Shown one piece after another: positions 25,433-34,050 of a stretch of DNA of 64,000 bases. Every line of letters begins with the position of its first letter. Positions within the stretch are counted from its first letter, which is position 1. The notes beneath the pieces were generated by a model. It had not been told where the DNA came from, did no database searches, and worked only from the letters and a program-made list of their open reading frames with translations. Made by a program: the position numbers and the translations under genes. The DNA is from Candidatus Competibacteraceae bacterium (lineage in GTDB: Bacteria; Bacteroidota; Bacteroidia; CAIKAF01), in assembly GCA_014879445.1 (NCBI GenBank), contig JACSSC010000024.1, positions 62,001 to 126,000 of the forward strand. Reading direction: 5' to 3'.

Positions 25433-25440
25433 TACTTTTG
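25433..25440 (+). promoter_or_regulatory. -7 promoter element for the DUF302-OsmC-AraC operon
   Basis: TACTTTTG matches TAnnTTTG 18 nt before the ATG at 25459. It overlaps a possible upstream TTG at 25438, arguing against translation starting there. Confidence 0.5.
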
Positions 25441-25458
25441 TCTAAAATTAGTATCATT

Positions 25459-25848
25459 ATGAAGTATTATCAATCAAAACGTATCTCCGGCATCAGCTTT
25501 GAAGAAGCCAAGGAAAAAGTTATAGCCGCTCTTCAAACAGAGGGGTTTGGTGTGCTTACGGAAATTGACATTCAAGCCACGATGAAAAAGAAGTTGGATA
25601 AGGATTATCTTCCTCATACCATTTTGGGCGCATGCAATCCTGTATTTGCCGATAAAGTTTTGCAAATCGAACCTACAATAAGCACGATGTTGCCATGTAA
25701 TGTTACACTACGCAAATTAGATAATAATGATATCGAAGTGGCAACCATTGATCCATCTTCGGCTATGACGGCAGTTGGCAACGATGCCATACTTCCAATT
25801 GCCTCCGAGGTTCAGCAAAAACTAAAAAATGTTCTTGACGCATTATAA
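25459..25848 (+). CDS. DUF302 family protein
   Basis: The 129-residue protein starts at the ATG at 25459, because the promoter -7 element lies at 25433-25440. It covers the DUF302 domain: SFEEAKEKVIAALQTEGFGVLTEID near the start, then LGACNPVFADKVLQIEP and LPCNVTLRK with two conserved Cys positions. DUF302 proteins often sit beside redox, metal or sulfur genes, but their function is unknown. It is the first gene of a likely operon with OsmC (19-nt gap) and the HMA-AraC gene (22-nt gap), which suggests a thiol or metal stress response. Confidence 0.92.
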   Translation: MKYYQSKRISGISFEEAKEKVIAALQTEGFGVLTEIDIQATMKKKLDKDYLPHTILGACNPVFADKVLQIEPTISTMLPCNVTLRKLDNNDIEVATIDPSSAMTAVGNDAILPIASEVQQKLKNVLDAL

Positions 25849-25867
25849 TTCATAATATAAATATTGT

Positions 25868-26305
25868 ATGACACCACACAGTTATCCAGTAAAACTAACA
25901 TGGGTTGAGGGGCGCAAAGGCCATATTGTATCACCCGACCTCCCACTCGAATTTGATGTGGCCACTCCTCCTCAATTTGATAATGGCATTCCCCATATTT
26001 GGTCACCCGAGCATCTTTACACAGCGGCTGTACTTAGTTGTTTTATGACCACTTTTTTGGCCGTTGCCGGGTTCTCTAAACTTGAATTTTCTGCTTTTTC
26101 ATGCGACTCGGAAGGGGTACTTGATAAAGTAGAGGGAAAATTTCTGATGACAGAAGTAAAGCTTCGCCCTGTACTCACCATCTTAAATGAAGCAGATAAA
26201 GAAAAGGCCGAAAAGATTTTGCATAAATCTGAAGCAGCTTGCCTTATTTCTAACTCTATTAAAACAACGGTTACGCTTGAACCAGAGATTCGCATAGCTC
26301 CATAG
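25868..26305 (+). CDS. OsmC/Ohr family protein
   Basis: The 145-residue protein has the OsmC fold and both redox cysteines. One is in the helix VLSCFMTTFLAVAG (about residue 57), the other in SEAACLISNSIKTTV (about residue 125). Family members reduce organic hydroperoxides with dithiol cofactors. The position between DUF302 and a metal-sensor-like AraC protein supports a peroxide or metal stress role. The typical Ohr catalytic Arg is not clearly identifiable, so the broader OsmC label is safer. Confidence 0.92.
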   Translation: MTPHSYPVKLTWVEGRKGHIVSPDLPLEFDVATPPQFDNGIPHIWSPEHLYTAAVLSCFMTTFLAVAGFSKLEFSAFSCDSEGVLDKVEGKFLMTEVKLRPVLTILNEADKEKAEKILHKSEAACLISNSIKTTVTLEPEIRIAP

Positions 26306-26327
26306 TTTTTTACATTATGTTCAATTA

Positions 26328-26903
26328 GTGATTCGGAAATACCATCTCAAAAACATGTATTGCATGAGTTGCGTACAACTCATTGAGCTGGTATTTTCAC
26401 ATGAGAAGCATATTCGTTTACAAAGTGTGATTGCCGGAGAAGTTGTATTGAAGGCACCTGATCGGATTTCTGATTCTTATATTATCAATATCTTCAGAAG
26501 GTATGGATTTGAACCGGTTTACAACCCCGATGAGATGATTTGCGAACGCATCAAGCAGGCAGCTGTTGAACTGATTTTTTACGCATACAATGCCAATTCC
26601 CTTTTAAGGAATTCTGATTATATCAGTCAAAAATTACAACTTCCTTACGATCGTTTATCAAAGTTGTTTTCAAAAGTTACAGGCACAACACTCGAAAAAT
26701 ATATCATTCTTCTTAAAATAGAAAAGACAAAAGAAATGTTGTTGAGTGATGCTTTTACCGTGAGCGAAATTGCCTTTATGATGGGCTATAGCAGTGTTCA
26801 GTATCTTAGTAATCAGTTTAAGAAAATCACCGGCGAAACCATCTCTGCATTTAAGACAAATCCCTCACCTCATCGAATCCCAATAGATAAACTACTTGAT
26901 TGA
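26328..26903 (+). CDS. Fusion of a heavy-metal-associated (HMA-like) domain to an AraC-type DNA-binding domain
   Basis: The 191-residue protein has an N-terminal ferredoxin-like fold of about 70 residues resembling copper-chaperone HMA domains. It has CMSC (Cys12, Cys15) in the metal-loop position and ends GFEPVYNP. Residues about 90-185 form an AraC helix-turn-helix pair: LSKLFSKVTGTTLEKYI and SEIAFMMGYSSVQYLSNQFKK. The GTG at 26328 is preferred because the first strand IRKYHLKNMYC is needed for the HMA fold; the first in-frame ATG (26355) would truncate it. It is the last gene of the DUF302-OsmC operon. Metal sensing by the CxxC is inference. Confidence 0.85.
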   Translation: MIRKYHLKNMYCMSCVQLIELVFSHEKHIRLQSVIAGEVVLKAPDRISDSYIINIFRRYGFEPVYNPDEMICERIKQAAVELIFYAYNANSLLRNSDYISQKLQLPYDRLSKLFSKVTGTTLEKYIILLKIEKTKEMLLSDAFTVSEIAFMMGYSSVQYLSNQFKKITGETISAFKTNPSPHRIPIDKLLD

Positions 26904-26980
26904 TTTTCTATTTCAACTTATCTCCTGAATATTATACATCTTTTTCCAAATTTTATAACGATATATGTGAATTCATCAAA

Positions 26981-26988
26981 TACCTTTG
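26981..26988 (+). promoter_or_regulatory. -7 promoter element of the six-gene RRE/ATP-grasp operon
   Basis: TACCTTTG is an exact TAnnTTTG match 17 nt before the ATG at 27006. No TTTG is seen at the -33 spacing. The 102-bp spacer upstream contains no small open frame that could be a precursor peptide. Confidence 0.5.
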
Positions 26989-27005
26989 CATAAATTATCT
27001 ATGTA

Positions 27006-27245
27006 ATGAAACTTAAAAAAGATATTGCCATAAGCGATTCAGGATTTCTTTTCAATCCTTCTTCAGGCGACAGCTATACGGCTAATCCTATTGCAACTGA
27101 AATCTTAAAATATATGCAATCTGGCTTTTCAAATGAACAAATTATTGTCTCGATTATGGAATCATACGACGTGGAGCGTTCTACTATCGAAAAAGATTTG
27201 TTTGATTTGGAATCAATGTTGTCTAATTATAAACTCACTCGTTGA
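27006..27245 (+). CDS. PqqD-like protein (RiPP recognition element fold)
   Basis: The 79-residue protein matches PqqD-type RREs in length and pattern: a beta pair at the start (ISDSGFLFNPSSGDSYTAN), then PIATEILKYMQSGFSNEQII and an amphipathic helix-turn-helix (VERSTIEKDLFDLESML). In RiPP pathways this winged-helix fold binds the leader peptide and presents it to modifying enzymes. Here it heads a tight operon with an ATP-grasp ligase (25-nt gap) and a PLP decarboxylase. No precursor peptide gene is visible nearby, so the peptide may be encoded elsewhere, or the domain may act as a scaffold. Confidence 0.85.
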   Translation: MKLKKDIAISDSGFLFNPSSGDSYTANPIATEILKYMQSGFSNEQIIVSIMESYDVERSTIEKDLFDLESMLSNYKLTR

Positions 27246-27270
27246 GCATGAATAAGTAATCTTATTTAAG

Positions 27271-28335
27271 ATGAAGAGAAAAAAAAAGATGAAGCCGTGT
27301 TATACGATTGCAGTTACCGGGATAAACGCTATTGATAGTCCAGGGCCGGGTGTCCCTGTAATCAGATCTCTAAAAGAAGCTTCAAGCTTTGATGTGCGTA
27401 TTATTGGGCTGAGTTATGAAGCCCTCGAACCTGGAATCTATATGCGTAATCTTGTGGATAAAGTGTATCAGGTTCCTTATCCATCAGCAGGTACAGATAT
27501 GATGTTTGAGCGATTTAGGTATATTCAATCCATTGAGAAAATTGATTTTCTATTTCCCAATTTTGACGCTGAACTTTTCAACTTCATCAAATTGGAACAA
27601 AAATTACGTGACGAATTGGGTGTCCGAATGGTGGTTCCTTCTTTACAACAATTTGAATCCCGAAACAAGGTTAATCTTTTTGAATACGGTAAAAATCATG
27701 GGGTTAAAGTACCTGCCGCAACACTTGTACATTCTGCTCGTGAGGTAAGCGCAAAGCTGGTTGACATGAATTTTCCTATTGTAGTAAAAGGTAAATTTTA
27801 TGATGCAAAAATTGCTTATACAAATGAACAGTCCATACAACATTTTGACAAAATTAGTGCACAATGGGGATTACCTGTTTTGTTGCAGGAATTTATTCCG
27901 GGCACCGAGCTCAATGTATGCGGTGTGGGCGATGGTGCAGGCAAACTAGTTGGCGCTGTCCCTATGCGTAAACTTTATATTACTGATAAAGGTAAAGCTT
28001 GGGCGGGTGTTACAATTTCGGATAAGAAATTGATTGAACTAACTCGTAAACTAGTAAAAGAAACCCAATGGAATGGCCCGTTTGAATTGGAAGTTATGAA
28101 AACAGTAGATGATAAATATTATCTGATAGAAATTAATCCCCGTTTTCCGGCTTGGTGCTATCTTACTACTGGTGCAGGGCAAAATCAGGTGGAAAGTGTT
28201 GTGAATATCGGTATGGGTAATGATGTTACTTATTTCAGAAAATATGAAACAGGCAAGTTGTTTATTCGCTATGCATATGACATGATTGTTAACATGAATG
28301 AATTTGAACAAATTTCCATTAACGGCGAGCTATAA
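27271..28335 (+). CDS. ATP-grasp domain ligase
   Basis: The 354-residue protein has a pre-ATP-grasp Rossmann-like domain (about 10-115, AVTGINAIDSPGPGVPVIRSL). Next comes an ATP-binding domain with PIVVKGKFYDAKIAYT and QEFIPGTELNVCGVGDGAG, then a metal-binding end with FELEVMKTVDDKYYLIEINPRFPAW (the catalytic E...EINPR). It resembles CarB-like and amino-acid ligases: it should activate a carboxylate as acyl phosphate and couple it to an amine or thiol. The substrate is unknown. M7 (27289) is an alternative start. It lies between the RRE and the PLP decarboxylase, 8 nt before the latter. Confidence 0.88.
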   Translation: MKRKKKMKPCYTIAVTGINAIDSPGPGVPVIRSLKEASSFDVRIIGLSYEALEPGIYMRNLVDKVYQVPYPSAGTDMMFERFRYIQSIEKIDFLFPNFDAELFNFIKLEQKLRDELGVRMVVPSLQQFESRNKVNLFEYGKNHGVKVPAATLVHSAREVSAKLVDMNFPIVVKGKFYDAKIAYTNEQSIQHFDKISAQWGLPVLLQEFIPGTELNVCGVGDGAGKLVGAVPMRKLYITDKGKAWAGVTISDKKLIELTRKLVKETQWNGPFELEVMKTVDDKYYLIEINPRFPAWCYLTTGAGQNQVESVVNIGMGNDVTYFRKYETGKLFIRYAYDMIVNMNEFEQISINGEL

Positions 28336-28343
28336 TATTTTAT

Positions 28344-29714
28344 ATGATGAAGAAGAAAGAAAAAAAAATCTATGAACGCCCTCTTATCAGGCCATTAAAT
28401 GCCAGCATTTCCAATAAGTTTGGTAGACGAACTGAATGGTTGCCACTAACACATATTGACGGAATTCCTGTTGTTGATTTGATAAATGAATTTGGATCGC
28501 CACTTTTTGTATACTCAGAGAAAAAAATTCGTGATAATTTTATGATGGCAAAGCGGGCTTTTGAAACTCGTTATCCTAAAATTCAGTTTGCTTGGTCTTA
28601 TAAAACTTGTTATCTGAATGCCGTTTGCAATGTGTATCACCAAATGGGATCATGGGCTGAGGTGGTTTCTGGATTTGAATATGAAAAAGCTTTGCAAAAT
28701 GGTGTGCCGGGTGATAAAATCATTTTTAATGGTCCTGATAAATCTAAGCACGATTTACTGTTGGCAATGAAAAACAATACCTTGATACATATTGACCATT
28801 TTGATGAATTATATTTATTAACAGAATTAGCTTCTAGTTCGAAATCTAAGCCAAGAGTTGCTATTCGTATAAATATGGATACCGGTGTATATCCACAATG
28901 GGATAGATTTGGATTTAATTATGAAAATGGTCAGGCATGGGAGGCAGTTAATAAAATTCTGATGAATGATGCACTTGATTTGGTAGGTATTCATACTCAT
29001 ATCGGAACCTTTATGATGACGCCATCCGCTTATGCTGTGGCAACTGCAAAAATGACGGAATTGGCTATTCAAATTAAAAAGAAATTTAATCATATAATTA
29101 CCTATATTGACATGGGTGGTGGATTCGCTTCAAAAAATACATTGAAGGGCTCTTATTATGCAGGGGCGGATGCTGTGCCAGATATTGGAGAGTATGCCGA
29201 AGCGATAACATCGGCCTTGCTTAATGCCGGATTTGATAGAAACAATCTTCCTTTTCTGTATTTAGAAACAGGGCGTGCATTAGTAGATGATACAGGATTT
29301 TTATTAGGCACTGTTTTGGCCAATAAACGATTGGCTGATGGAAGAAGAGCAACTATCTTGGACTTCGGAGTGAATACATTATTTACATCTTTTTGGTACG
29401 ATCATAAAATTTCACCAGCACAAGAAATGGGTCATTATGCCGAAGAAACTATACTCTATGGCCCTTTATGTATGAATATTGATGTGGTACGTGATGCAAT
29501 ATCATTACCACCTCTAAAGCCCGGACAACATGTTGTGGCGCAATATGTGGGCGCATATAATATTACACAATCCATGCAGTTTATTACATTTCGACCTGCA
29601 GTTGTAATGATTGACAGAGAAGGAAGGTCTCATTTGATCCGAAAACGTGAATCCCTTGATTATGTACAAAAAAATGAAATACTCCCATCACATTTAAAAA
29701 AATTAAATTGGTAG
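28344..29714 (+). CDS. Fold type III PLP-dependent decarboxylase, diaminopimelate decarboxylase/BtrK-like
   Basis: The 456-residue protein has the alanine-racemase-like barrel of the LysA family. Lys87 (WSYKTCYLN) is the PLP lysine, the phosphate-binding glycines are in YIDMGGGFAS, the PLP-ring Glu is in ETGRALVDD and the conserved catalytic Cys is Cys376 in GPLCMNID. A 40-residue N-terminal extension is unlike housekeeping LysA. Diaminopimelate is possible, but the ATP-grasp neighbour recalls the BtrJ-BtrK pair of butirosin synthesis, where a ligated glutamyl thioester is decarboxylated. The substrate is therefore probably a tethered or unusual amino acid; this is inference. Confidence 0.88.
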   Translation: MMKKKEKKIYERPLIRPLNASISNKFGRRTEWLPLTHIDGIPVVDLINEFGSPLFVYSEKKIRDNFMMAKRAFETRYPKIQFAWSYKTCYLNAVCNVYHQMGSWAEVVSGFEYEKALQNGVPGDKIIFNGPDKSKHDLLLAMKNNTLIHIDHFDELYLLTELASSSKSKPRVAIRINMDTGVYPQWDRFGFNYENGQAWEAVNKILMNDALDLVGIHTHIGTFMMTPSAYAVATAKMTELAIQIKKKFNHIITYIDMGGGFASKNTLKGSYYAGADAVPDIGEYAEAITSALLNAGFDRNNLPFLYLETGRALVDDTGFLLGTVLANKRLADGRRATILDFGVNTLFTSFWYDHKISPAQEMGHYAEETILYGPLCMNIDVVRDAISLPPLKPGQHVVAQYVGAYNITQSMQFITFRPAVVMIDREGRSHLIRKRESLDYVQKNEILPSHLKKLNW

Positions 29715-29717
29715 ATT

Positions 29718-31907
29718 TTGTCGTTTAATACATTGAAATATTATGCCCAACTTTTTATAGAAGGTATCTTTAATAGTTACGCTCAAATTTATTTTTCAAA
29801 AAATAAATGGTTGGCTTTTGCATTGATGTTGGTTGCTTGGATGCATCCATTAGCTGGATTCGCATCATTAATAATGGTTGTAATCGGTCAGTTGACTGCA
29901 CTTTTTTTTCACTATAGTCATCAAGAAATTCGTAATGGAAGCTATACATACAATTCTGCACTCACAGGCATGGCGATTGGAGCATATTATCAGTTTACCG
30001 GCGCATTTATCGTTTGGCTTGTTGTTGCAGCTATTCTAACTTTTTTTATTTCAGTTTGGTTTATGCATCAGTTGGCCATTAAAAACTTGCCATTTCTTAG
30101 CATTCCTTTTCTTGCAGTAGTATGGCTCATTATGATGGGTGAGAAAAATTTTGCAGCTATCGAACCTCACGACTCTTCTGCATATTTGGTTGTTAATCAC
30201 TTCCCTTTATTATTTTCTGCTGTAACCGAATGGATAATGCAATGGACTATAGCTGATATTATGCTGTTATATTTCCGTTCTATGGGTGCAATATTGTTTC
30301 AGTATAATGACCTTGCTGGAATACTTGTTTCCATTGGTATTTTGATACATTCTCGCATTTCATTTATTCTTTCAATTTATGGTTTCTTGCTTGGTTTTTT
30401 CTTTTATCAGCTTATGGAAGCCGATTTTTCACATTTGATTTATTCTTATATCGGATTCAATTTTATACTTACATCTATTGCATTGGGCGGATTTTTTGTA
30501 GTAGCTTCTCGCCGTTCTTTCCTCCTTCTTCTTCCCGTAATACCAATGACAGCTTTTGTTATTAGTGGTCTACACGGTATCCTTTTTACTTTTGGTTTAC
30601 CATTATACTCCTTGCCTTTTAATTTGATTGTACTTCTGATTTTATATTTTTTGAACAATCGCTTGCATGCAACAGGCCTGTTTAAAGTGCCGTTTCAACA
30701 TTATTCTCCCGAACTTAATCATTACAAGCATTTTCTTAATTCTCAACGATTCAAAAGCCAAACTTATTTTCACATTTCTCTTCCATTTATTGGTGAATGG
30801 CGGGTTTCTCAAGGTCATAATGGCGCGATTACGCATAAAGACGACTATCGTTATGCACTTGATTTTGATGTGGTGAATGAAGATTATAAGACATATCATC
30901 AGGATGGGGACAAATGTTCAGATTATTATTGCTTCAACCTCCCTGTTCAGTCACCGGCGTCAGGTTGGGTATCTTCAGTGCAGGACGGTATTGATGATAA
31001 TGAAATCGGACAGGTTAATTTATCCCAAAATTGGGGTAATACTGTTGTTATTCGTCATGGCGATTATTTGTATTCAAAATTGTCGCATTTGAAAAAAGAT
31101 TCAATTATCGTGAAACCCGGCGATTATCTACAAAAAGGACAATTAATAGGTTATTGCGGAAACTCTGGCAGATCGCCTGAGCCGCATCTTCATTTTCAGT
31201 TGCAAACATATCCTTATATTGGGTCCAAAACAATTTTTCATCCTATTGACTATTATCTTTTACGAAAAAATAATAAACTCCAACTTCGTTCTTTTGATTT
31301 GCCTCTTGAAGGCGAATTAGTATCGCCCATTGTTACTACACCTTTACTTTATGATGCATTTAATTTTTTGCCAGGAAGAGTGTTGGAGTGGAAGATAAAA
31401 AAAGGCGAAAATTTTTTTTCGAATAAGTGGGAAGTTTTTACAGATTCTTCTAACAAAACTTACATTTATTGTCATCAAACAGGTGCCATAGCTTATTTTG
31501 TGAATCAAGGCACAATTTTTTATTTTGTTGATTATTATGGTAGCAAGAAATCACTTCTACACCATTTTTACAAAGGCGCTCATCGCGTTATATTGGGTTA
31601 TTATGAAGATTTGCAAATTGACGACCGCATACTGAATACAGATTTGTTTCCTTCTGTTTTGAATTTTATTCATGATTTTACCGCTCCATTTTTTCATTAT
31701 TTACTATCTTATTACACACTTTCTTTCCATTCTCAAAATGCAATTCATAATCCTACTCAATTATCGTTTGTTTCAAATTTATACGGAAAATTTATTCATA
31801 AAACCATCATAAATAAACAGTACAATTTCCATTTATCCCGACAATGTCTGCTTTCATTTACTTATTACGAAAACAACCAAGCATGCGAGGCATCTCTCTC
31901 TCATTGA
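29718..31907 (+). CDS. Urea-transporter-like membrane domain fused to an M23 (LytM) peptidase domain
   Basis: The 729-residue protein starts at a TTG 3 nt after the previous stop. Residues about 1-310 are a polytopic membrane domain resembling the urea transporter (UT) family, including TYNSALTGMAIGAYYQ and the repeat-like NDLAGILVSIGILIHSR. Residues about 365-500 are an M23 endopeptidase domain: HKDDYRYALDFDV, GNTVVIRHGDYLYSKLSHL and the HLHF zinc motif (about 488-491) are present. About 225 further residues are unassigned. M23 enzymes cut peptidoglycan cross-bridges. A channel and a hydrolase in one chain suggests a machine acting across the inner membrane; the cargo is unknown. Confidence 0.85.
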   Translation: MSFNTLKYYAQLFIEGIFNSYAQIYFSKNKWLAFALMLVAWMHPLAGFASLIMVVIGQLTALFFHYSHQEIRNGSYTYNSALTGMAIGAYYQFTGAFIVWLVVAAILTFFISVWFMHQLAIKNLPFLSIPFLAVVWLIMMGEKNFAAIEPHDSSAYLVVNHFPLLFSAVTEWIMQWTIADIMLLYFRSMGAILFQYNDLAGILVSIGILIHSRISFILSIYGFLLGFFFYQLMEADFSHLIYSYIGFNFILTSIALGGFFVVASRRSFLLLLPVIPMTAFVISGLHGILFTFGLPLYSLPFNLIVLLILYFLNNRLHATGLFKVPFQHYSPELNHYKHFLNSQRFKSQTYFHISLPFIGEWRVSQGHNGAITHKDDYRYALDFDVVNEDYKTYHQDGDKCSDYYCFNLPVQSPASGWVSSVQDGIDDNEIGQVNLSQNWGNTVVIRHGDYLYSKLSHLKKDSIIVKPGDYLQKGQLIGYCGNSGRSPEPHLHFQLQTYPYIGSKTIFHPIDYYLLRKNNKLQLRSFDLPLEGELVSPIVTTPLLYDAFNFLPGRVLEWKIKKGENFFSNKWEVFTDSSNKTYIYCHQTGAIAYFVNQGTIFYFVDYYGSKKSLLHHFYKGAHRVILGYYEDLQIDDRILNTDLFPSVLNFIHDFTAPFFHYLLSYYTLSFHSQNAIHNPTQLSFVSNLYGKFIHKTIINKQYNFHLSRQCLLSFTYYENNQACEASLSH

Positions 31908-33259
31908 TCTTATTCATTACTTATATGCTAGGTTTGTCAGTAATTGCCAATGCCCAGTATGATTCTTTGCGAATCGAAAATGAATCACTCCGTTTGTTTG
32001 AATCCAAATCATGGAATGAACTGATTCGATTTGGAAAGGATGCAAGGAGATCTGGATTTAAGAATCACAAAAATTTATTAGCTAGAATGGGTGTCGCATA
32101 TTATCATAAAAAAATGTTTTATCGCTCAGAGAAGTATCTCGAAAAAGTGTACATAAAACATCCTATTCATTTTGATATTCATCCGTTTTTTTATGAGGCA
32201 TCTCTTTATACAGGAAATTTTTTTCAGGCAGCTGAGTTACATACATGGCTTCGGCCTACTGATAAAAGATTCACAAAAAGGGTAACTCGTATTGGCATTG
32301 AAATGGGTGCAAGAATTTCGAATAATGAACTTGCCGGACATACTTTTTTTGTTGGGATAAGTGCATCCCATCTTCCATCCCGAAAAGTAGCTTTAATGCA
32401 ACAGTATATGTATATTATTCAGCAAAAAAACATTTGGGGCAATTTTGATCAGCATCAGTATTACTTGGGGGCTGCATTTCGCATCAACAGTCGTTGGAAT
32501 TGGGATGCTGCTGCACATTTTTATCTTTATAATGCTGATATTAATTATTCAACATTATTGCCCTCTGTGGTTTCTACTCCTCCTCCTATTCCGGGTGAAT
32601 GGGCTATTGACTCCGTTACAAGAAAAAACACCTGGTATCATGGGAAATATCTACAGCCGGGCATGATTCTGCAAACCGGCGCCAGTCGTTCTTCTGGTCC
32701 ATTTAGGTTTTCTCCATTCGTTCAAATTTCTATCGAAACTCGATTTTCTGAAGTTATGCAAACCACATGGAATGACTTAATCGTAATAAAAAAGAGACCA
32801 GATACTGCATCCGTGTATAATTATTTTTATGCTTCAGATTCGCTAACCGAAAAGGTGAAACACCCTCGAATTGTGTTTCAGTTTATGGCCGGGGCATCGG
32901 CATCTTATACCTTCCCTTTTCTCAATGAACTATTTACACTGGGCGCTTCTGTTTATCTTCCTGTTGCTCGAATGCCAAAACCCATTATTTCTCCTTTTCT
33001 TCGTCTGCAAACTAAAAGATTTGTGTTTACAGGTTCATATTTCTATAAATCCTCAAGCGTCATGGCTGAGCATTATGCTTCTAATCTGATTAATACCTAC
33101 GATGTAATCAATCACCGTGTTAATACACATTTCTCTTATCAATTTACCCCGGCATTTTCATCCAAGATTCTTTACCAATGGGAAGACAAAACTGACGATT
33201 TTTCTTTGGTCAGATATCATACTCATACAGTTTCATTGATGTTTAACTTAACATTCTAA
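31844..33259 (+). CDS. TPR-containing outer-membrane beta-barrel protein (YaiO-like)
   Basis: The frame overlaps the end of the UT-M23 gene by 64 nt; a start at 31883 (MRGISLSLILF) gives a cleaner signal peptide ending ANAQ and a 25-nt overlap. The mature N-terminus (about 40-150) is TPR-like (LLARMGVAYYHKKMFYRSEKYLEKVY). The C-terminal 300 residues alternate polar and aromatic positions and end LMFNLTF with a terminal Phe, typical of outer-membrane barrels, like the YaiO family. It is probably the outer-membrane component of the operon. I do not recognise a characterised homologue. Confidence 0.8.
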   Translation: MSAFIYLLRKQPSMRGISLSLILFITYMLGLSVIANAQYDSLRIENESLRLFESKSWNELIRFGKDARRSGFKNHKNLLARMGVAYYHKKMFYRSEKYLEKVYIKHPIHFDIHPFFYEASLYTGNFFQAAELHTWLRPTDKRFTKRVTRIGIEMGARISNNELAGHTFFVGISASHLPSRKVALMQQYMYIIQQKNIWGNFDQHQYYLGAAFRINSRWNWDAAAHFYLYNADINYSTLLPSVVSTPPPIPGEWAIDSVTRKNTWYHGKYLQPGMILQTGASRSSGPFRFSPFVQISIETRFSEVMQTTWNDLIVIKKRPDTASVYNYFYASDSLTEKVKHPRIVFQFMAGASASYTFPFLNELFTLGASVYLPVARMPKPIISPFLRLQTKRFVFTGSYFYKSSSVMAEHYASNLINTYDVINHRVNTHFSYQFTPAFSSKILYQWEDKTDDFSLVRYHTHTVSLMFNLTF

Positions 33260-33262
33260 TTT

Positions 33263-33904
33263 ATGTGCATACAATTTTTTTTTTCATTCCGAGCGCGCCT
33301 TTTTAATTGGATTTTTCTTTCTTTATTACTGTATGTTCGTGTAGATGCGCAAACAGATTTTACAGCTGTTTCACAAGCTTTTTATGCAAGTTATGAATAC
33401 GAATATGCCCAAAATTATGATGAAGCGATAAATGTTTTGGAGAAAGTATATTCTGACAAACAATATGAAATTCATCTACGTTTGGGTTGGTTATATTATC
33501 TCAAAGGAGATATGCAAAAATCCATTGCATTTTACAAACGCGCTATTATGATTCAACCTAAGTCAGCAGAAGCCAAATTAGGTATGGCTTACCCCTTAGC
33601 ATCTCTTAGTAACTGGGATGAATTAGCTCTACTTTATAAAAATATTTTGAAAGATGATAGTAGAAATTATACAGCTCTTTATCGCCTTTCATTAATTTAT
33701 TATTACAAAAAGAAATATTCGGATGCCCTTTCAGCTATACAACTGCTACTGCCATTATATCCTTTTGATTATGATTGTAATTTGCTTGCCGGCAAAATTT
33801 TCATTGGTCTAGGAAAAATTACAGATGCCAAAAAGTATATTCAACGTGCCGTTTTGTATAATCCCACCGCTACCGAACCTGCTATGCTCCTGCAATCACT
33901 TTGA
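33263..33904 (+). CDS. Exported TPR protein
   Basis: The 213-residue protein has a signal peptide (hydrophobic run to about residue 30, VDAQT) followed by four to five tetratricopeptide repeats, for example EIHLRLGWLYYLKGDMQKSI, KRAIMIQPKSAEAKLGMAY and YRLSLIYYYKKKYSDAL. It starts 3 nt after the barrel gene and ends the six-gene operon. It is likely a periplasmic adaptor for the barrel or the M23 protein. Function is inferred from repeats and position only. Confidence 0.85.
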   Translation: MCIQFFFSFRARLFNWIFLSLLLYVRVDAQTDFTAVSQAFYASYEYEYAQNYDEAINVLEKVYSDKQYEIHLRLGWLYYLKGDMQKSIAFYKRAIMIQPKSAEAKLGMAYPLASLSNWDELALLYKNILKDDSRNYTALYRLSLIYYYKKKYSDALSAIQLLLPLYPFDYDCNLLAGKIFIGLGKITDAKKYIQRAVLYNPTATEPAMLLQSL

Positions 33905-34026
33905 TAAACTTTATCTTGCAATCTATTGCTGGCAAGACAGTTATCTATAATCTTGCTATTTTCTCTTGTTAATTACTCTTTGAATAACTTGCCAACAAAT
34001 ACTTTTATCAGCCCTGAGGAAGTATT

Positions 34027-34034
34027 TACCTTTG
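34027..34034 (+). promoter_or_regulatory. -7 promoter element for the dehydrogenase gene
   Basis: TACCTTTG matches TAnnTTTG 16 nt before the ATG at 34051; a TTTT at 34003-34006 lies at -33 spacing. A transcript starting here would begin next to or after the TTG at 34045, supporting ATG 34051. Confidence 0.45.
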
Positions 34035-34050
34035 ACTAAAGTTTTTGGCT

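Follow-up and report, generated by a model that had tools for sequence, protein, structure and literature searches.

Do six adjacent genes on the forward strand of a 64,000-nucleotide stretch of DNA from a Candidatus Competibacteraceae bacterium (GTDB lineage Bacteroidota; assembly GCA_014879445.1, contig JACSSC010000024.1, positions 62,001 to 126,000; hereafter the window) form one system, and if so what does it do? The genes, here named A to F, encode a PqqD/RRE-fold protein (RRE, RiPP recognition element; RiPP, ribosomally synthesized and post-translationally modified peptide), an ATP-grasp ligase, a pyridoxal 5'-phosphate (PLP) decarboxylase, a fusion of the urea transporter (UT) fold with an M23 metallopeptidase, an outer-membrane beta-barrel protein and a secreted tetratricopeptide repeat (TPR) protein. 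It is near certain that they form one real system. For its function we tentatively put forward synthesis followed by release, in which a substrate is ligated and decarboxylated and a small neutral product leaves through the channel, the barrel and the TPR protein.

Independent searches of 296 Bacteroidota genomes (140 genera) with gene B (E <= 1e-40), gene C (E <= 1e-70) and the UT-M23 fusion D returned an identical 27 genomes, representing 22 genera and 14 families (carriers of D were counted with the source genome included, and four genomes matching only the M23 domain were set aside). A total of 106 loci were then read, consisting of the neighbourhoods from 26 carriers and 80 further loci obtained via an ATP-grasp alignment search. 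This search found at least 562 encoding relatives of gene B, in at least 560 species-level genomes, so that a widespread bacterial function would lack an assignment. The full six-gene set was present in 85 of the 106 loci, and most of the 21 incomplete loci stop at a contig edge. The usual order was A-B-C-D-barrel-F, and its recurrence throughout the phylum goes well beyond chance, with F relocated upstream in five loci of the 80-locus set and the barrel gene placed after F, not before it, in several loci of the 26-carrier set. No F was detectable at three loci (L055, L056, L059) and no D adjoined A-B-C at two others (L068, L082), making the six-gene rule strong, not absolute. For B, C and D, the matrices of pairwise distances correlated with r values of 0.84-0.89, to which shared species history also adds. 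A previous reading of the DNA from its letters alone (the sequence-only reading) had named the recurrence of all six genes, identically ordered, in distant genera as support for a system, and confinement to close relatives as an argument against one; the set, with its order, proved to be shared by distant genera. The conserved set includes no ABC, MFS, RND or TonB gene and no NIS synthetase, and genes for a glycosyltransferase, a polymerase or a lipid carrier are likewise missing from it.

Catalytic, zinc-binding and pore residues

Gene B scored above the cut-offs of ATPgrasp_Ter (39.0 bits) and ATP-grasp_3 (31.6 bits), and its closest solved relatives were carbamoyl-phosphate synthetase domains. 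K173, E274, E287 and N289 were invariant among 24 sequences (E-x-NPR motif), retaining the metal-binding E...E-x-N, and because these residues are kept the ligase should be active.

Gene C matched Orn_Arg_deC_N (99.3 bits) and Orn_DAP_Arg_deC (41.2 bits), with the N-citrylornithine decarboxylase 7kh2 as its best solved relative (187 bits vs 146 bits for diaminopimelate decarboxylase). K87 (the PLP lysine), H219, E308, C376, M377, D380 and Y405 were invariant in 24 of 24 sequences. The sequence-only reading had called this decarboxylase LysA-type, an assignment we do not retain; the protein fell below the LysA cut-off (TIGR01048, 222 bits against 297.9), CMNID replaces the LysA-type acidic C-x-x-D loop, and the genome encodes a separate LysA (L063; 385 bits against the same cut-off). 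Gene C carries the FigC-type Cys-Met signature (C376-M377), with Ile379 at the site of FigC His357, and its score against the FigC/FslC model was also below cut-off (NF041039, 217 bits against 500). In FigC, Met355 stands next to the catalytic Cys, where related decarboxylases bind a free side-chain amine through an acidic residue, and His357 is the proposed citrate contact (PMC7857480). Since C376-M377 matches the Met355 site, we infer that the side-chain amine is blocked in the substrate of gene C, as it would be in a molecule made by a B-type ligase, and since Ile379 replaces His357 the acyl group it carries is probably not citrate.

Both halves of protein D were recognized by Pfam (UT, 179.7 bits; Peptidase_M23, 58.0 bits). 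Its AlphaFold model (pLDDT 92.8) matched urea transporters (target TM 0.75-0.86) and M23 domains, including Csd1/Csd2, ShyA and DipM, in Foldseek, and the C-terminal domain had no match in Pfam or NCBIfam. The M23 residues H373, D382, H457, H490 and H492, which include all zinc ligands, were invariant in 64/64 and 23/23 rows, with the first His nine residues before the Asp. The N and C termini of UT proteins are both cytoplasmic. Among 64 homologues of D, the N-terminus and the Arg/Lys-rich stretch that follows the last UT helix were positively charged, and the central loop carried a net negative charge. At one locus (L055:7944-10198, in the single-contig genome G005) the UT and M23 halves are separate genes that overlap at ATGA. 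There the M23 protein begins with MNNKTRFRYKSLVPIKLPFFG and has no signal peptide, a single natural case that might be a frameshift. Because the UT topology, the charge distribution and this split homologue agree, the M23 half of D is most likely cytoplasmic and probably not a cell-wall enzyme. The channel-peptidase fusion described by the sequence-only reading is upheld, but the envelope-facing placement of its peptidase is not supported.

The position of D equivalent to Glu187 of dvUT (equivalences taken from the D-dvUT alignment) was occupied by A/S/G/L/F/I/Y and was non-acidic in 87/87 rows, the Gln24 equivalent was Q in 71/87 rows, and the phenylalanine constriction was largely kept. We take Gln24 and Glu187 to be the polar filter pair in dvUT. 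Urease was found in 1 of 27 carriers vs 9 of 269 non-carriers. Because the Glu187 position is non-acidic and urease is not associated with the set, these alignments and counts make urea itself an unlikely solute of D. Urea assimilation was dropped as a candidate role on the same urease count.

Gene A matched PqqD (PF05402, 32.4 bits; cut-off 23.4), with the lasso-peptide RREs TbiB1 and TfuB1 as closest solved structures and G13, F16, G21 and N27 near-invariant in the homologue alignment. A carrier role, whether for acyl groups or through the C-terminus, was rejected, as the protein has no conserved Ser motif and its C-terminus is not conserved. The predicted barrel of gene E has no Pfam family, yet the AlphaFold model (pLDDT 87) combines a helical (TPR-like) N-terminal domain with a beta-barrel; a fold search returned generic barrels only. 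A barrel gene was present in all clades; in some of them the barrel is shorter and lacks the helical domain. The protein encoded by F has a signal-peptide-like N-terminus ending AQ and 14 invariant positions among 28 homologues. F was tandemly duplicated at four loci (L114, L117, L131, L134).

Layout, regulator and shared block

The six open reading frames reported by the sequence-only reading, on one strand with their gaps and overlap, were confirmed exactly (Table 1), and its family assignments held, with PqqD, ATP-grasp, PLP decarboxylase, UT, M23 and TPR each found by Pfam. From A to F the open reading frame list gives gaps of 25, 8 and 3 nt, an overlap of 64 nt and a gap of 3 nt; the D/E overlap shrinks to 25 nt if E begins at an internal ATG (31883). 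The single -7 promoter of the same reading is present as a candidate element, and such motifs are enriched across loci: of 103 loci, 14 have one at a distance of 8-60 nt upstream of gene A, vs 2.2 expected from mononucleotide shuffles. However, that reading had overlooked the regulator and the remaining shared block, and its interval of 27006-33904 holds the six genes but not the entire unit, which takes in the HMA-AraC gene and the shared block from ~25.5 kb. Rfam and tRNA scans of the window gave no match. None of the PADLOC anti-phage defence models was matched by the six proteins, and a defence role was dropped on that result.

Table 1. Positions of the six genes, the domains of D, and neighbouring features in the window
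Feature	Position	Strand	Evidence
Gene A, PqqD/RRE-fold protein, 79 aa	27006-27245	+	PF05402 above cut-off
Gene B, ATP-grasp carboxylate-amine ligase, CPSase-like, 354 aa	27271-28335	+	Pfam and structure relatives
Gene C, alanine-racemase-fold PLP decarboxylase, FigC-like, 456 aa	28344-29714	+	Solved relative 7kh2
Gene D, UT-M23 fusion, 729 aa	29718-31907	+	Pfam and AlphaFold/Foldseek
D, urea-transporter-fold domain, aa 15-311	29760-30650	+	PF03253
D, M23 metallopeptidase domain, ~aa 355-500, predicted cytoplasmic	30780-31217	+	Zinc ligands, predicted topology
D, C-terminal beta-rich domain, no known family	31218-31904	+	Confident model
Gene E, secreted; N-terminal helical repeat domain and outer-membrane beta-barrel	31844-33259	+	Signal-peptide-like N-terminus, model
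Gene F, secreted TPR protein, 213 aa	33263-33904	+	TPR above cut-off
Gene U, AraC-type regulator with HMA-like N-terminal domain (NMYCMSC)	26328-26903	+	HTH_18, 58.7 bits
Candidate Bacteroidota -7 promoter element TACCTTTG	26981-26988	+	Motif match
DUF302 gene	25438-25848	+	Pfam; in block common to sister species
OsmC gene	25868-26305	+	Pfam; in block common to sister species

The HMA-AraC gene U belongs to the unit, as its relatives lie immediately upstream of gene A in ~30 other loci. The second Cys of its CxxC motif was almost invariant in operon-linked regulators, and the full motif was kept in about half of them. At other loci the place of HMA-AraC is taken by LytTR-type response regulators, in some cases accompanied by kinases. 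A relative of the regulator in genome G305 (L165:5146-5706, minus strand) adjoins a copper-type P-type ATPase gene; copper sensing by this family is hinted at, and is a lead rather than a result. In four loci (L084, L085, L092, L094) F stood upstream, where its neighbours were a kinase-like gene and one for a LytTR response regulator, with a second LytTR regulator after the barrel gene. One clade (L044:4123-5199, L047:4417-5262, L051:4611-5450) encoded a secreted protein of at least ~280 aa directly upstream of A, bearing a C-terminal sorting-like NPFNPST region, and a 661-aa secreted repeat protein was encoded between A and B at L059.

Window positions 25438-34050 (~25.5-34.0 kb) recur in a congener (G297, contig L159) at 97-100% DNA identity, reaching 99.7-100% in 300-base bins over 28.2-33.9 kb, and the flanks are at ~77% (downstream genes 74-80% DNA identity, upstream genes 73-82% protein identity). 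A high-identity block between such flanks suggests that the operon moves as a whole, the HMA-AraC gene included. Comparison of the sequences makes a recent transfer of DUF302, OsmC, HMA-AraC and the six genes the simplest reading, with the caveat that both assemblies are many-contig, so that a chimeric assembly is possible. The operon has a GC content of 35.6% vs 39.3% in the rest of the window, and the ATP-grasp gene was found in only 2 of 16 genomes of the same order. The DUF302 and OsmC products, 95.5% and 100% identical in protein sequence in G297, did not recur as a neighbour cluster at other loci and are probably passengers in the block. TetR and SulP genes (23.0-25.4 kb) were missing from the congener's copy of the place. 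Comparison with two further genomes (G296, G298), in which downstream genes match and upstream genes differ, gave no clean empty site, and a search for plasmid carriage gave no match at E 1e-60.

Proposed pathway and competing explanations

In the synthesis-and-release pathway that we tentatively prefer, B would couple a carboxylate and an amine at the expense of ATP to yield an N-acylated amino acid, with A holding or presenting the substrate. C would then strip the alpha-carboxylate from this modified amino acid, a reaction like that of FigC on N-citrylornithine. Close to the inner mouth of its own channel, D would cleave one amide bond with its cytosolic M23 domain. The product, having lost charge via amide formation and decarboxylation, could diffuse through the UT pore, after which the periplasmic F and the outer-membrane E would carry it outside. 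The operon may be switched by the HMA-AraC protein or by another regulator elsewhere. We prefer release of a small neutral compound because the UT and the barrel, two diffusion devices, are the sole membrane-transport parts of the conserved set, which has no energised transporter. The synthesis-and-export model of the sequence-only reading remains the best account in its order of synthesis then release, but not in its view of the UT-M23 protein as an envelope-facing peptidase.

Several points weigh against this pathway. The sequence does not explain the need for an M23 hydrolase. The UT pores of solved structures pass urea-sized solutes, conduction by D is putative and its topology is a prediction. 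Decarboxylation leaves a free amine, so that neutrality of the product needs an extra assumption. Two loci (L068, L082) have A-B-C and no D-E-F downstream, and the enzyme core may at times function separately from the membrane parts. The greater share of the probability is spread over the alternatives below and over readings that we have not thought of.

A peptide scaffold would give gene A a more familiar role. A would bind a precursor encoded elsewhere, B would add or cross-link residues, C would decarboxylate a side-chain-attached amino acid and the cytosolic M23 domain would act as leader or release peptidase. In lasso-peptide synthesis the B1, C and B2 proteins are an RRE, an ATP-dependent ligase and a cytosolic peptidase, roles that A, B and the M23 domain parallel. 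Cleavage of Gly-Gly bonds is known for M23 enzymes, lysostaphin being an example. The RiPP-type recognition protein of the sequence-only reading is borne out by the fold and by its nearest solved relatives, the lasso RREs, but the precursor peptide that an RRE protein implies is not. No conserved candidate emerged when 5,532 small open reading frames lying up to 2.5 kb upstream or 1.5 kb downstream of the loci were clustered, the top clusters resembling out-of-frame or antisense shadows of neighbouring genes, and the gaps in the block that recurs in the sister species offer hardly any space for a precursor. The conserved set also lacks a peptide exporter. The peptide may be encoded elsewhere; otherwise gene A would hold the enzymes themselves or a substrate of non-ribosomal origin. 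We regard the scaffold as rather unlikely. A periplasmic M23 domain that opens or trims peptidoglycan, with B and C making a group for an envelope polymer that reaches the surface via E and F, would suit the mostly cell-wall action of M23 enzymes, the intact zinc ligands, the Foldseek matches and the likeness of E and F to TPR-plus-barrel export pairs. However, the cytoplasmic ends of the UT fold agree with the charge distribution of D, the split M23 half has no signal peptide, and none of the polymer-building genes named above is in the conserved set, so that modification of the envelope seems unlikely to a slightly greater degree.

A product that binds a metal such as copper, with HMA-AraC sensing the metal, would suit the relatives of C, as FigC, SbnH and AcsE are siderophore-pathway decarboxylases (PMC7857480). 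The HMA-like CxxC of the regulator and the copper-type ATPase beside its G305 relative are consistent with this, but the conserved set has neither an NIS synthetase nor a TonB-dependent receptor, about half of the operon-linked regulators have lost CxxC, LytTR-type regulators replace them at other loci, and the citrate-contacting His of FigC is Ile in gene C. We consider a metallophore-type pathway improbable. The flow could also run inwards, with the barrel and UT admitting a small solute that the cytosolic M23 domain hydrolyses and the ligase and decarboxylase process further. Channels are bidirectional, and a hydrolase fused at the cytosolic mouth suits an importer; nevertheless, a set whose most conserved partner is a ligase that spends ATP looks made for synthesis, and the absence of urease from 26 of 27 carriers leaves urea use unsupported, giving uptake or salvage a similarly low probability.

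Returning to synthesis and release, it is possible, though doubtful, that the set represents a class of metabolite system not described before. In it, an M23 amidase in the cytosol, fused to a urea-channel fold, would free a small neutral product at the channel mouth, and the product would leave by pumpless facilitated diffusion through a dedicated inner-membrane channel and an outer-membrane barrel. If the synthesis-and-release model holds, it would bring a new chemistry pairing (ATP-grasp with a FigC-like decarboxylase), a cytosolic use of the cell-wall peptidase family M23 and a urea channel turned to another purpose. At ~7 kb the operon is compact, and it is apparently mobile, making heterologous expression and metabolomics feasible, and as single-contig carrier genomes exist (G005) a suitable strain may be available.

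Comparison with known systems

The sequence-only reading knew of no experimental description of these genes, and we likewise found no description of the combination in the literature, which was covered through open-licence papers, so that an unseen description is possible. The operon as a whole passed no membership test for the known systems compared. Rhizoferrin synthesis by FigA/FigC (FslA/FslC) is alike in acyl ligation to the side-chain amine of a diamino acid followed by decarboxylation, and FigC shares Cys-Met at the active site with C. It differs in using an NIS synthetase where B is an ATP-grasp enzyme and in the His357 already described, and the channel, M23, barrel and TPR parts have no FigA/FigC counterpart. 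The butirosin proteins BtrJ/BtrK/BtrI likewise comprise a small protein, a ligase and a decarboxylase, and BtrJ is an ATP-grasp ligase. BtrI, however, is an acyl carrier protein, whereas gene A has the PqqD fold and no conserved phosphopantetheine-type serine motif in the alignment. For the butirosin decarboxylase, the substrate is bound to a carrier protein of 87 aa (PMC7857480). The lasso B1/B2/C machinery shares a stand-alone RRE, an ATP-dependent ligase and a peptidase, here predicted to be cytosolic, with the present set, but here no precursor was found, the ligase and peptidase belong to other families and there is no ABC exporter.

Protein D resembles dvUT and UT-A/UT-B in fold over the whole domain, in most of the phenylalanine constriction and in Gln24, but differs from dvUT in its non-acidic Glu187 equivalent, its fusion to M23 and beta-rich domains and the absence of a urease link. 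With M23 endopeptidases (lysostaphin, ShyA, Csd1/2, DipM) it shares the fold and all zinc ligands, while its M23 domain is predicted to be cytoplasmic and has wider His-Asp spacing than the usual HxxxD. By this comparison the enzyme pair of the operon works like FigA/FigC or BtrJ/BtrK and its RRE recalls the lasso machinery, but the operon is a member of neither. The single domains are already known; the novelty is their combination in one set of genes.

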